Shown here: one piece after another, positions 3,606 to 49,474 of the stretch
Layout of the letters: every line of letters begins with the position of its first letter
How positions within the stretch are numbered: position 1 is the stretch's first letter
Assembly: GCA_016124755.1 (NCBI GenBank)
Contig: WGNA01000011.1
Coordinates: 62,001 to 126,000, forward strand
Direction of reading: 5' to 3'
Length of the DNA: 64,000 bases
DNA from: Bacteroidota bacterium
Lineage (GTDB): Bacteria; Bacteroidota; Bacteroidia; NS11-12g; UBA9320
Translations under genes and position numbers: made by a program
The notes under the pieces: generated by a model
What the model was told of the DNA's origin: nothing
What the model saw: the letters and a program-made list of their open reading frames with translations, nothing else
The model's database searches: none

Positions 3606-6542
3606 CTATTTCAGTTTGTACATTTTCTGCGTAAAATATCCAGTTTCGGTTACAATCTGAACAAAGAAAATTCCCTTGTATTCTACCGGTTTAATGGTAA
3701 TGGACATTGGATCTTTTTCACTGCTAAATGAAATTTCACGACCTACATAATCTGTTAATTTTACGGAAAGAATAATTTCTCCCGGATAAATAATTTCAAA
3801 TTTTTCCTCAAAGGGATTTGGTCGAATGATAAACGTACGGTCTAAGTCAGTTGCGGATAAATCCTGATAGTTAAATCCTGCGCTGGTGTCAGATGTACAA
3901 CCGTCGGGATTTGTATAAGTAACGGTGTAGATTCCATTTGTTTTTGGAACGATATAGTCGTGTGTGGCGCCGGAAACGGGAACACCATTCCGGTACCATT
4001 GATTTCCGTTTCCTTTTTTACTCGACTCCAGTTCATTGAAATTTTTAGAAATAACGGGAGGATCAGGAGGTGTCGAAAAGCGCACATTTACGGTATCTGA
4101 ATTAACGCAACCGAATTCACTTTTAACTTTATCGTAATAAATGCCGGCTTTGGATATTCGTATTTTGGTGGTTGAATCACCGTTGCTCCAATAATTTTTG
4201 AAAGAAGCGGAACCCGACAGATCCATAAAACCGGAACAACAAACCGTATCGGAAGGTAAATTAATTTCCGGGATGGGGTAAAGATTCACATGAGCAGAAT
4301 CCTGATAATGGCAGTTGAAAGGACCTGTGGCGTTCAGAAAATACCAGCCGCTTGAATCAACCTTTAAGGATTGTGTTGAGTCGGATGTGTTCCAATAATA
4401 TTTGTTGAAATTTCCCGCATCCAAAACTACGGTGTTTCCGCAGACAGAAGTATCTGACAGGTTGGTCTTGATTTCCGGACAATTAAAAAGCGCTACTTCG
4501 ATGTTGTCGAGAAATAAATTATTGCCAAATTTAACTTCCTTGTTTGCCACAAATGAATCTGTGTGAATTACGAATTGCAGCATTATTTTTTCATACGGAA
4601 TAAAGGAGTCGAGAACCAACGAATCTTTCATCCATTGATTGCAATTGGTCGGGGACCAGTCGTTATAATTTTTACCTTTAACCGTAGCCAATTCATCCTG
4701 AGTTTTAGAATAAATATTTTGAAAATGGAGTCCACAGTCGGTGGAAATATTTACATCTAAAACTGTATTGTAATTGTCGAAGGAAGTGGTGTAAGCGCGA
4801 TCGAACCTCAGTCTGGCTCGCTCGTAATTGCTAATGTCCACAACAGGACTGATTAAATATTCCTTTTGATTTTTATCGGTTCCGGAATTGGTGAAACTGT
4901 GAAAAAACAGGCACGTGGAATCTGCATTGGAACACCCCGGATTTTCATTAAAATCAAGAGCAGTCCGGTTGTCGGGATTTAAAATAAACCAGTGGAGGAG
5001 TGAGCTGTCTTTTGTGGTTTCGACCCAGCTTTGTTTGGTGTTTTCTAATGCAATTACTTTATAACACACAGCATTTTGCGGGATATAATTTCTAACTCCG
5101 TTTTCAATATTTATTAATTCAATTTCTAATAAATTTAGGGTGGATGTTAAGGGTACATTGGGCAACGTAAAAGATTGAGTCTTACCCGGAGCAAGTGAAT
5201 CGTAAATTAAATAATTAGAAATTTTATTTCCGTTTAAGAGCAGATTAACTTCAAAACTGTCGACAACGATGAAGCTGTTATTTTTAACAGTGAATTGAGG
5301 TTGAACCACCGAGTCACAAACAAAGATGTAGTCTTTAGCATCGGTAAAAATATCCAAACAATAGTCTCCCGTATCCAGCAGATGATTCCAATTCAATAAT
5401 TGCTTCCGTATATCCAACAGGGCGCCGTGCATCCGTTGTTTCTGACCATTGGTGAAGGTGTTTTGCAAACTGTGAAGTGAGTAGTCCATGTAATCTTCAC
5501 ACAAGTCGGGTTGGTCACTGGTAAAAGGAGTATTTTGTTCTTTGCTGTCGTTGATGCAGGAATTACCACAACTGGTTCTGGAAGAACTAGAAACTTCCTG
5601 AGGCGGTGTATCACAAACCCGGTCTCCATCGAGCAGACAATCGTTGTTTGGGATATTGCAATCGTTTTCAAAAGTGTGATACAAACCAAAATAATGACCG
5701 ACTTCATGAATTAAAGTAACACCGTGATCTGCCGATGAAGTGTAGGAAGTAAGTATGACAACACCGTCGTAAGGTTGGCCATACGCATCGGGCATGTATG
5801 CATAACCGGCGGCAAAATCGCATTGTGGCACGATATAAATATTGAGAAATTTCGTTACCGGAAACGCGTCTTTGCAAAAACCACGGACTGCGTTTTTCAT
5901 CTGAATATCTTTGGCCGAATTGGTGATTCTTAAAAAGCTGTCGGCCGGCCACCGGCAAATTCCGTTTAGACCGGAACCGGTTCCATATTGAAACCATTCT
6001 TTACTTTGGTTTTTATCAAAGGTTGCCAGTTTAAATTCGAAATGAATATCGACACTTTGAACAGCGGGATTTTTATTGGATGAACTGCCGCTGAAGTATC
6101 CACGATTCCGGTATCCGTCGTTCAGGTTTTTAATGAGATTGAGAATTATTCCATCAGAAACATTTGTGCTGTACCCCAAACCATCTGCGCTGCTGTGCAG
6201 AACGTGCACCACAACCGGAATGGTGTACGTCGGTTCCTCCAATGAACAATAAGGTTCGTTTTCAACCATTGCGGAAGCATCCGATTTCTCCAACGGATTA
6301 TGGTTATCCGGATCGGGTTGAGGTACCGGGTCGTTGATATGTTTAGACTGAAATTGATACATTCTGGATTCAAAATCCCGGTATTTCATTGAATCCATTT
6401 GTGAATTTCGAATTAATGCTGAGCCGCAAACGAAGTCGGATGTGGTCTGAGAAAGTGCATTTTCGGATAAAAATAGAAAAAGCAAAAGAATCGAGAAGCC
6501 TATAGCTGGTCGCATTCCAGTCGTATTCGCTGAGTTGACCAT
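3606..6542 (-). CDS. T9SS-exported M43 (pappalysin-type) metalloprotease
   Basis: Secreted zinc protease of 978 residues. A signal peptide (hydrophobic core about residues 13-27, ending LSQ) is followed by the M43 catalytic domain, about residues 100-385, with the metzincin motif HEVGHYFGLYH at 279-289 and many cysteines. A central region of about residues 510-690 looks like a jelly-roll/MAM-like domain, then two Ig-like segments with SprB-style 'NTSDSTQSLKVDSSGWY' pattern. The last ~75 residues (IIRPNPFEEKFEI ... FVQIVTETGYFTQKMYKLK) form a type A T9SS sorting domain. The start at 6542 gives a long n-region; Met10 (base 6515) would place the signal peptide at the very N-terminus and may be the real start. 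Monocistronic. Confidence 0.9.
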   Translation of the reverse strand: MVNSANTTGMRPAIGFSILLLFLFLSENALSQTTSDFVCGSALIRNSQMDSMKYRDFESRMYQFQSKHINDPVPQPDPDNHNPLEKSDASAMVENEPYCSLEEPTYTIPVVVHVLHSSADGLGYSTNVSDGIILNLIKNLNDGYRNRGYFSGSSSNKNPAVQSVDIHFEFKLATFDKNQSKEWFQYGTGSGLNGICRWPADSFLRITNSAKDIQMKNAVRGFCKDAFPVTKFLNIYIVPQCDFAAGYAYMPDAYGQPYDGVVILTSYTSSADHGVTLIHEVGHYFGLYHTFENDCNIPNNDCLLDGDRVCDTPPQEVSSSSRTSCGNSCINDSKEQNTPFTSDQPDLCEDYMDYSLHSLQNTFTNGQKQRMHGALLDIRKQLLNWNHLLDTGDYCLDIFTDAKDYIFVCDSVVQPQFTVKNNSFIVVDSFEVNLLLNGNKISNYLIYDSLAPGKTQSFTLPNVPLTSTLNLLEIELINIENGVRNYIPQNAVCYKVIALENTKQSWVETTKDSSLLHWFILNPDNRTALDFNENPGCSNADSTCLFFHSFTNSGTDKNQKEYLISPVVDISNYERARLRFDRAYTTSFDNYNTVLDVNISTDCGLHFQNIYSKTQDELATVKGKNYNDWSPTNCNQWMKDSLVLDSFIPYEKIMLQFVIHTDSFVANKEVKFGNNLFLDNIEVALFNCPEIKTNLSDTSVCGNTVVLDAGNFNKYYWNTSDSTQSLKVDSSGWYFLNATGPFNCHYQDSAHVNLYPIPEINLPSDTVCCSGFMDLSGSASFKNYWSNGDSTTKIRISKAGIYYDKVKSEFGCVNSDTVNVRFSTPPDPPVISKNFNELESSKKGNGNQWYRNGVPVSGATHDYIVPKTNGIYTVTYTNPDGCTSDTSAGFNYQDLSATDLDRTFIIRPNPFEEKFEIIYPGEIILSVKLTDYVGREISFSSEKDPMSITIKPVEYKGIFFVQIVTETGYFTQKMYKLK

Positions 6543-47581: not shown

Positions 47582-48191
47582 TCATTTCACCATCTTACCA
47601 ATCATCCGCTCAATTTTTTCACCTCTTCGGATATAGGCGATGTACCGGTCTTTTTGAACATCTACTATCTTGGCTGAATACACCAATGAAGAATCTGTGA
47701 GATTGTAGGCTTGATATTCACAGGGCCCAATCCATTTAATGCCGTAAGCATAATTTACGGTTCCATTGCCGGTGGAGTAATTCTCCCGGTAAAGACTACG
47801 GGTGATCCATCCGGCTTTAATTTGAAAAATTCCGAATCTTACTCTTTGTACACTATCTGCACATTCTAATGATTCATAATTTTCTTCAGTAATGTGAAGA
47901 GCATATCCATTAAGATTTCCTTTTGCCAGATGATACTTTAACCCACTTTATGAATTGGAACTTCGTAGCGAGAGTGCAAAGCCCGAAACCACGCGGCATT
48001 GAACGAATGAAGCATAGCGCCGCTATGGTGAATGAGAAAAATGCCGTTCATCCATGTGGTGATGGGGTTTGTGCTCGCAGTAGATTTTCTAATGCATAAA
48101 GTGGGTTTAATAAAATTTCAAAAAGAGAATAAGCTATGAAAACAATTAACAACACAGTACTTCCCTTAGTTCCTGTTGATGTACTTTTCAT
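47582..48191 (-). pseudogene. small membrane-anchored protein gene split by a MITE-like element
   Basis: From ATG at 48191, overlapping the upstream stop as ATGA, 27 codons encode MKSTSTGTKGSTVLLIVFIA and on to FEIL, a signal-anchor. The frame then enters the element at 48107 and stops at 48048-48050 after 47 codons. Beyond the element, from 47940 on the minus strand, the same frame resumes LKYHLAKGNLNGYALHITEE and on to IERMIGKMVK, stopping at 47582. Removing the 166-bp element and one TTA copy gives an uninterrupted 147-codon frame (146 aa). No domain recognised in the product. The interrupted gene is the last of an operon of membrane proteins. Confidence 0.85.
47941..48106. mobile_element. 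166-bp MITE-like insertion element
   Basis: Begins ACCCACTTTATG and ends CATAAAGTGGGT: a perfect 12-bp terminal inverted repeat, extending to about 15 of 16 bases. The two halves are partly complementary over their full 83-base length, closing on CATAGCGCCGCTATG at the centre. It is flanked by direct copies of TTA (47938-47940 and 48107-48109). No coding capacity for a transposase. A 3-bp TNA-type duplication is known for the IS1031 group of the IS5 family, so a transposase of that type elsewhere in the genome may move it. Confidence 0.85.
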
Positions 48192-49474
48192 AATGCACTA
48201 TCGGTAATTTTCATGTCTCTCGTATAATGTGCATAATACTCACCGGGCCGCATTTCCGGAAATTTTTTATAATCAAAATAGGGCTCTCTGCAATGCGGAC
48301 AACGAAGCGGATTGAGATATTTAAACCGGCCTCCCTCTATTCCGAATAATTCGCGATCAACATATTCGATTTCCGATTTGGTCAGAGCAATTGGATTCGC
48401 GTATCGGATCAGATAATTATCAAGTTGGCTGTTTTTGCTATGCGATAGGGTGAGCAATTCTTTCCCGTCGTCAGAATATGCATATCCTTTTTCCGCAAAG
48501 CCCATGTGAAAGGCCCGCATGCTAAAACTCTTTTTGCAGACATCACAAAATGCGATCATCTGCATATTACCGGAAATAATTCCCCTGAAATGCAAACCTC
48601 TTTCAAAACCTCCTCTGCCTGCGAAATGATCATTCATTTGTTGCTGATCTGAAAGAAAAAAGGGTTGAATAACGATAGTTCCCAATGCATTTTTTGTTTC
48701 GTGTTTAGATTTGGAAACGGCTGCTTCGATCTGAACAGAAGAATTAGTATTCACCCGAATCTCGAAATGCAAAAACAAACCCTTTCGGTGTTCCGGATAG
48801 TCCTGTAATTGAATTCGTGCTTTGCGGTATAATTGTTCATTTTCATAAATCAACAGATCGATAAAATCTCCATGGGTTTCCAGATTGAAAAGCGACCGCC
48901 TTAGTTCCTTTCTTTTCTCGTTTGAGTTAATAATGGTGATCTCATTATCGATCACTTTTATTCCGCTTGCATTTCTTTTTACCAAGGCGGGTATAAAGTG
49001 CCACAACATTGAGATAAATACTATTATTCCTACGACCAAAAGTACCATTGCCGGATCAGCATCCTTTTTTCTGGTGGGCTGGTTTGGAAATTCAGGAAGC
49101 AGAGAATTTCGGTTTATAAAATTTTCATAGAACCGGTTATAAAGCGAATCGACCTGCTGTTCCGTTGCTTCGGGATACATTTTTCTAATGGCTTCCATAA
49201 CCTTTGTCTGGCGAATGGAAAGAACAATTGAATCCCGTTCTGATTGTGCGTATACTCTACCGGGAATTGTGTCTGCTTCAGCCCAGATCTCAGAGTCTTC
49301 CGGATTTTTAAAATGAGGAGAAGAGGTAGTGTTGGTTGCGAATAATGCTTTGGGAATGGAGGAAATAATTAAATTAAAGACAATGAAAAGAATGAAATAA
49401 ATGAAATGGCGTGTTAAAGAAAAAAGACCAAACTGAATTGAAATTGAACCAGAAACGCATTTTTCTTTTTGCAT
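48188..49474 (-). CDS. membrane protein with zinc-ribbon-like cysteine pairs
   Basis: 428 residues, two hydrophobic segments (about 22-42 and 140-162). The segment between holds an NPEDSEIWAEAD stretch and helical repeats. The C-terminal part has FCDVCKKSFSM and LRCPHCREPY, two CxxC pairs 100 residues apart that could bind one zinc ion. Function unknown. Its stop overlaps the start of the split gene downstream (ATGA), and it stands in line with the minus-strand membrane-protein genes at 49516 and 50216. Confidence 0.65.
   Translation of the reverse strand: MQKEKCVSGSISIQFGLFSLTRHFIYFILFIVFNLIISSIPKALFATNTTSSPHFKNPEDSEIWAEADTIPGRVYAQSERDSIVLSIRQTKVMEAIRKMYPEATEQQVDSLYNRFYENFINRNSLLPEFPNQPTRKKDADPAMVLLVVGIIVFISMLWHFIPALVKRNASGIKVIDNEITIINSNEKRKELRRSLFNLETHGDFIDLLIYENEQLYRKARIQLQDYPEHRKGLFLHFEIRVNTNSSVQIEAAVSKSKHETKNALGTIVIQPFFLSDQQQMNDHFAGRGGFERGLHFRGIISGNMQMIAFCDVCKKSFSMRAFHMGFAEKGYAYSDDGKELLTLSHSKNSQLDNYLIRYANPIALTKSEIEYVDRELFGIEGGRFKYLNPLRCPHCREPYFDYKKFPEMRPGEYYAHYTRDMKITDSAL

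Follow-up and report, generated by a model that had tools for sequence, protein, structure and literature searches.

We identified a short mobile element within a small protein gene in a 64-kb window (the whole stretch of 64,000 nucleotides that was analyzed) of a Bacteroidota genome. The features at the locus, in window coordinates, are as follows.

47582..47937, minus strand: 3' part of the split gene, 356 bases, in the same frame as the 5' part, with a TGA stop at 47582-47584
47938..47940, no strand: target-site duplication TTA, copy 1
47941..48106, minus strand: miniature element (MITE), 166 bp, non-coding, with its L end at 48106 and its R end at 47941, a full-length imperfect hairpin
47941..47952, plus strand: terminal inverted repeat ACCCACTTTATG (R end)
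48095..48106, minus strand: terminal inverted repeat ACCCACTTTATG (L end)
48107..48109, no strand: target-site duplication TTA, copy 2
48110..48191, minus strand: 5' part of the split gene, 82 bases, whose ATG overlaps the upstream stop
48188..49474, minus strand: upstream gene, 428 amino acids, whose stop overlaps the ATG of the split gene

The minus-strand open reading frame at 47582-48191 would comprise 146 codons if the element were absent. As an earlier sequence-only reading of this DNA had pointed out, its ATG at 48191 overlaps the TGA of the preceding gene (ATGA). After 82 open bases the frame passes into the element, where a stop codon at a depth of 19 codons limits translation to 47 codons in total. 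On the far side of the element, a further 356 bases are free of stops in the matching frame until the TGA at 47582-47584. A positive coding signal was found for the downstream half in the matching frame only (+15.6 bits over 119 stop-free codons), and 119 consecutive open codons are expected by chance with a probability of about 6e-4. The upstream half, with its 28 codons, is below the length that can be scored for coding signal. The matching frames and the coding signal of the 3' half bear out the proposal of the sequence-only reading that a gene has been split here, together with its codon arithmetic.

That reading had also proposed a search for homologues of the restored 146-residue protein. 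None was found at E <= 0.001 in 38 genomes of the same family and 108 genomes of the same order, an outcome which that reading had itself named as counting against its proposal, no Pfam family matched either half, and a search of solved structures gave no convincing relative. The missing homologues limit what can be tested rather than disprove the split gene, and the case that the gene was intact before the insertion is therefore made by frame and coding signal alone. By inspection, the N terminus of the encoded protein is hydrophobic and probably membrane-spanning. An obvious start codon is missing from the downstream half, where no minus-strand open reading frame of at least 50 codons beginning with ATG, GTG, or TTG is present. 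Because translation would halt within the element and the remainder lacks a start codon, the gene appears to be disrupted, and the best reading of this single insertion is ordinary insertional inactivation of an orphan gene with a predicted loss of function.

The two ends of the 166-bp element, ACCCACTTTATG and the exact complement of this sequence, form perfect 12-bp terminal inverted repeats, and a repeat search extended the inverted-repeat arms to 24 nt with 88% complementarity. The element does not contain a transposase open reading frame. The terminal 12-mer matches twice in the 64-kb window when up to one mismatch is allowed, both matches being exact (0.32 expected), and a search of the whole host genome for these termini, as the sequence-only reading had suggested, gave four exact occurrences and none for the reversed control. 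About eight dispersed copies of the element are present in the host genome. Outside the window, BLAST detected copies with 81-93% identity on contigs C16 (two), C31, C29, and C1, and a covariance model search added a copy on C34. Most host copies carry their own 3-bp duplication (TTA, TCA, or TAA). Multiple copies, TNA duplications, perfect 12-bp ends and the lack of coding capacity confirm that the element is MITE-like, and we conclude that it is a non-autonomous mobile element belonging to a multicopy family.

Some of the host copies are rearranged. A 76-bp internal-deletion derivative that keeps both ends and has a TAA duplication lies at C1:298733-298808, about 3.4 kb from a truncated copy at C1:295261-295394. 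The copies at C16:372-559 and C29:118134-118321 contain a near-identical 20-bp palindromic insertion (CCTGCCTGCCGGCAGG...) at one shared subterminal position, and the C1 derivative contains a CCTGC repeat similar to these insertions.

With the covariance model, the family was found in 32 of 396 genomes sampled at class level (about 8% of the sampled Bacteroidia), representing 20 of 199 genera. Searching 84,980 species with a degenerate L-end pattern detected relatives in Algoriphagus, Saprospiraceae, Flavobacteriaceae, Chitinophagales and in records labelled 'Chlorobiota'. Element length is nearly constant across the family, the complete relatives that were measured being 165-172 bp long. A genome of the same family as the host (G009) has about ten near-identical copies, which are nested in a larger MITE. 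This outer MITE is about 440 bp long with 29-bp ends AACCTGAGTTCGATT.. (for example L006, on contig C49 of G009, approximately 1319-1756), its tip is identical to that of an IS982 element of Algoriphagus aquaeductus (L161), and the compound of outer MITE and nested element has been amplified as a unit.

The sequence-only reading had proposed a link to the IS5/IS1031 group, which makes 3-bp TNA duplications. The duplications are of this kind across the family: of 79 copies, 44 are flanked by the same 3-mer on both sides, whereas 5000 shuffles averaged 14.6 and never exceeded 27, and in 38 of the 79 the identical flanks read TNA. This was the only IS5-like trait found, and the proposed link was not upheld. 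The transposase search suggested by that reading, carried out with the PF01609 (DDE_Tnp_1) and PF13586 profiles, detected no IS5/IS1031-type transposase in the host genome: PF13586 gave no match, and the sole PF01609 match, on contig C23, is an IS982 transposase according to NCBIfam. Genome G009, with its roughly ten copies, matched neither profile, and several copy-rich genomes gave no match to either. In element-bearing genomes and in sister genomes, IS5-type elements terminate in TAGAGGCCATCTC.., which differs from the MITE. On the basis of these searches and ends, an IS5/IS1031 partner was rejected.

The ends of the family (AACCCG..TATGCATTAG) are similar, though not identical, to those of IS982. 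The published IS982 end motif, 5'-AC(N)6T(N)5TT (PMC7335449), fits 53 of 82 MITE ends compared to 3.3% of the AC sites in the window. The IS982 ends read in Bacteroidia genomes include a AACSTGAGTTCGAT type and an AACCCG..TGCATT type. An IS982 end of the second type, AACCCGTTGTGCATTTAG, outscores 99.8% of background AACC/AACG sites when aligned with the MITE consensus AACCCGAATTATGCATTAG, although this likeness is the top one out of about 15 end sequences that were compared. The IS982 copy of the host (L058 2005-3031, on C23) encodes a 304-amino-acid transposase and has ends AACGTGAATAATG, unlike those of the MITE, and by inspection a 7-bp duplication (TAAAAGA); it appears to interrupt another gene. 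A close IS982 homologue was present in only five of the 28 MITE-bearing genomes tested. Neither the host genome nor the IS982 copies inspected in the 396 class-level genomes yielded an autonomous partner with the MITE ends; the material searched comprised draft assemblies and a restricted number of insertion sequence ends. A parental element with the same ends is usual for a MITE, although the label does not depend on it. The L-end pattern identified no parental insertion sequence in the contigs of the 84,980 species, in viral contigs or in plasmids. The sole viral-contig match to this pattern (L156) lacked the element structure and was discarded.

We consider IS982-type mobilization of the MITE likely. 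It is graded no higher because no parental element with these ends was found in the genomes searched, because few of the MITE-bearing genomes tested have a close IS982 homologue, and because the 3-bp duplication is shorter than the 5-8 bp duplications of the IS982 copies read from Bacteroidia genomes; for the IS982 family as a whole, 2-10 bp have been reported (PMC7335449). The TNA duplications, together with the 5-8 bp left by IS982 copies with comparable ends, would be explained if an IS5/PIF-like transposase moved the element and the IS982-like ends reflected coincidence or old shared ancestry. We regard this as unlikely in view of the different ends of the IS5-type elements (TAGAGGCCATCTC) and the many-copy genomes in which neither profile is matched.

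The sequence-only reading had further suggested that the insertion seems recent and may act as a reversible switch if a matching transposase, in this proposal of IS5/IS1031 type, is still active, excising the element precisely and restoring the gene. The frames match across the element and would still do so after excision to a single TTA, and both gene halves have stayed free of stop codons. This last observation lends the insertion some appearance of youth, but the nearest genomic copies are only 93 and 92% identical to the window element, and its recent origin is weakly supported. The same 7-8% divergence gives no sign of current movement; it speaks against an ongoing burst as far as this assembly shows, although draft assemblies can lose repeats. 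The switch is further opposed by the failure to find an IS5-type transposase in the host genome and by the different ends (AACGTGAATAATG) of its sole IS982 transposase gene. Empty sites could not be compared between strains or species because no counterpart of the split gene turned up in the 108 genomes of the order. As neither an empty site nor an element that has these ends and carries a transposase was observed, the switch is unsupported and we consider it highly improbable.

The whole element can be drawn as one long imperfect hairpin, and this structure is conserved. In an alignment of 27 diverse copies, compensatory double changes were found at 45 of the 55 pairs, a number not reached in any of 500 shuffles, and 92.6% of the alignment cells pair, again higher than in any shuffle and falling to 36-43% when the partners were slid. 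Paired substitutions could also arise by copying from arm to arm through template switching at the inverted repeats, instead of by selection on structure. The ratio of double to single-sided changes in the L-to-R alignment (67 versus 3 cells) fits such copying, but copying should erase the conserved mismatched internal loops that persist in nearly all copies. One-sided changes are moreover common on the R-to-L strand, and the mispairs are strand-asymmetric. We consider arm-to-arm copying a rather doubtful explanation of the covariation.

The two strands differ in how well they fold. The R-to-L strand (the plus strand of the window) is more stable as folded RNA in 77 of 79 copies, by a mean of 14 kcal/mol, and RNAalifold on the 27 copies predicted 55 pairs and -51.9 kcal/mol for this strand versus 32 pairs and -22.0 kcal/mol for the other. 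The low number of G-U pairs on the L-to-R strand had suggested that pairing is kept at the DNA level only, an interpretation that was overturned when the other strand was folded. Isolated mispairs on the R-to-L strand are mainly of types tolerated in RNA: G-U (149), G-A (161), and U-U (52) exceed A-C (36), C-U (19), and C-C (10), and G-G is also favored over the C-containing types. G-U exceeds A-C in 39 of 41 informative clusters and occurs at positions with a G-C majority as well as at positions with an A-U majority.

Transcripts of ERIC (enterobacterial repetitive intergenic consensus) and Correia/NEMIS elements have been described as structured RNAs that are processed or regulatory. By analogy, the hairpin could have been kept because the R-to-L strand is a putative structured RNA with a processed or regulatory role, besides its mobility as DNA. 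The stability of this strand, the RNAalifold prediction and the mispair types favor this possibility, which we put forward tentatively and hold to be less probable than its absence. When the letters at mispaired sites were held fixed, the G-U fraction (0.297) lay close to the shuffle mean of 0.272 and below the maximum of 0.340, which weakened the G-U excess as proof of selection on RNA, and several mispaired positions are common by descent. With G-U barely in excess and some mispairs inherited, the asymmetry could also stem from a strand poor in C or from old binding sites that are asymmetric; avoidance of C on one strand would suffice. In addition, no Rfam family matched above the gathering threshold, and the orientation of the element relative to neighboring genes (simple ORF calling) showed no bias over 79 copies. 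An orientation bias had been suggested by four host copies (C16 372, C31, C29, and C1:142273) that follow a stop codon at a distance of approximately 10-40 bp and are oriented so that the stable hairpin strand is the sense strand, and was dropped when the 79 copies were considered.

In several subfamilies the L end on the R-to-L strand (for example L073, approximately 5142-5190, minus strand) carries TTTTG, 19 bases and TAGATTTT. Bacteroidota promoters follow the pattern TTTG .. TAnnTTTG, and this arrangement resembles such a promoter facing outward from the element. The promoter-like -33 part has been lost in the subfamily of the window element. A stronger version of the RNA proposal, which we find unlikely, is that the family is a Bacteroidota-wide mobile element that moves as DNA and is shaped by selection on the RNA of one strand, its conserved product being a hairpin RNA specific to that strand and about 170 nt long. 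If true, the element would be a mobile RNA gene or an RNA-processing site and not a decaying MITE.

The history that we consider probable for the locus is as follows. A non-autonomous MITE of a family spread through the Bacteroidota would have been served in trans by a DDE transposase, most likely of the IS982 type, which joined the element into a TTA site and thereby generated the 3-bp TNA duplication. The insertion would have split the small protein gene just past its hydrophobic, probably membrane-spanning N terminus, so that translation halts inside the element and the remainder, without a start, is lost. The family appears to have been maintained as one long hairpin of mostly 165-172 bases, in which asymmetric conserved subterminal sequences are possible transposase-binding sites and the base-paired body evolves by paired substitutions.

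Several known systems resemble this family. With IS982 it shares the AC(N)6T(N)5TT motif and, for some Bacteroidia members, the AACCCG..TGCATT type of ends; it differs from IS982 in lacking a transposase gene, in length (about 0.17 versus about 1 kb), in its conserved asymmetric subterminal sequences and in the 3-bp duplication. The IS5/IS1031 group is similar in its 3-bp TNA duplication, but its ends differ and no such transposase was found in the host genome. IS982-derived MITEs have been described in Bacteroidota, namely MITECca01 of Cardinium (PMC9769881), and MITE239 and MITE700 of Porphyromonas gingivalis have the left end ACGTGAGTTCGAT (PMC4596501), which equals IS982 ends read in our analysis. 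Like these, the present family is short, non-coding, dispersed and multicopy, with IS982-like ends and Bacteroidota hosts. It is distinguished from them by its AACCCG..TATGCATTAG ends, the hairpin spanning the whole element, the 3-bp TNA duplication, its occurrence in many families instead of one species, and the lack of an identified parental insertion sequence. Integron attC sites, which also have AAC..GTT ends and form hairpins, were ruled out because the flanking copies are direct and not inverted duplications, and REP/REPIN sequences because of the duplications and the length.

ERIC and Correia/NEMIS duplicate TA upon insertion. Both are mobile, hairpin-forming imperfect palindromes of 100-200 bp that are mostly intergenic and widely distributed in a single lineage (in part from PMC10969869), and in all these respects the present family is alike; its ends are unrelated, it occurs in another phylum, and its duplication is TNA and not TA. 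No description of the family was found in the literature searched, ISfinder being outside the scope of that search. MITEs, IS982-related MITEs of Bacteroidota and ERIC-like palindromes were already known, and the best reading is that the family itself is new and unusually widespread. It represents an ERIC-like palindromic MITE for the Bacteroidota, open to annotation by covariance model, links its ends to IS982, and raises the question why a non-coding parasite would retain the RNA fold of one strand over many bacterial families.
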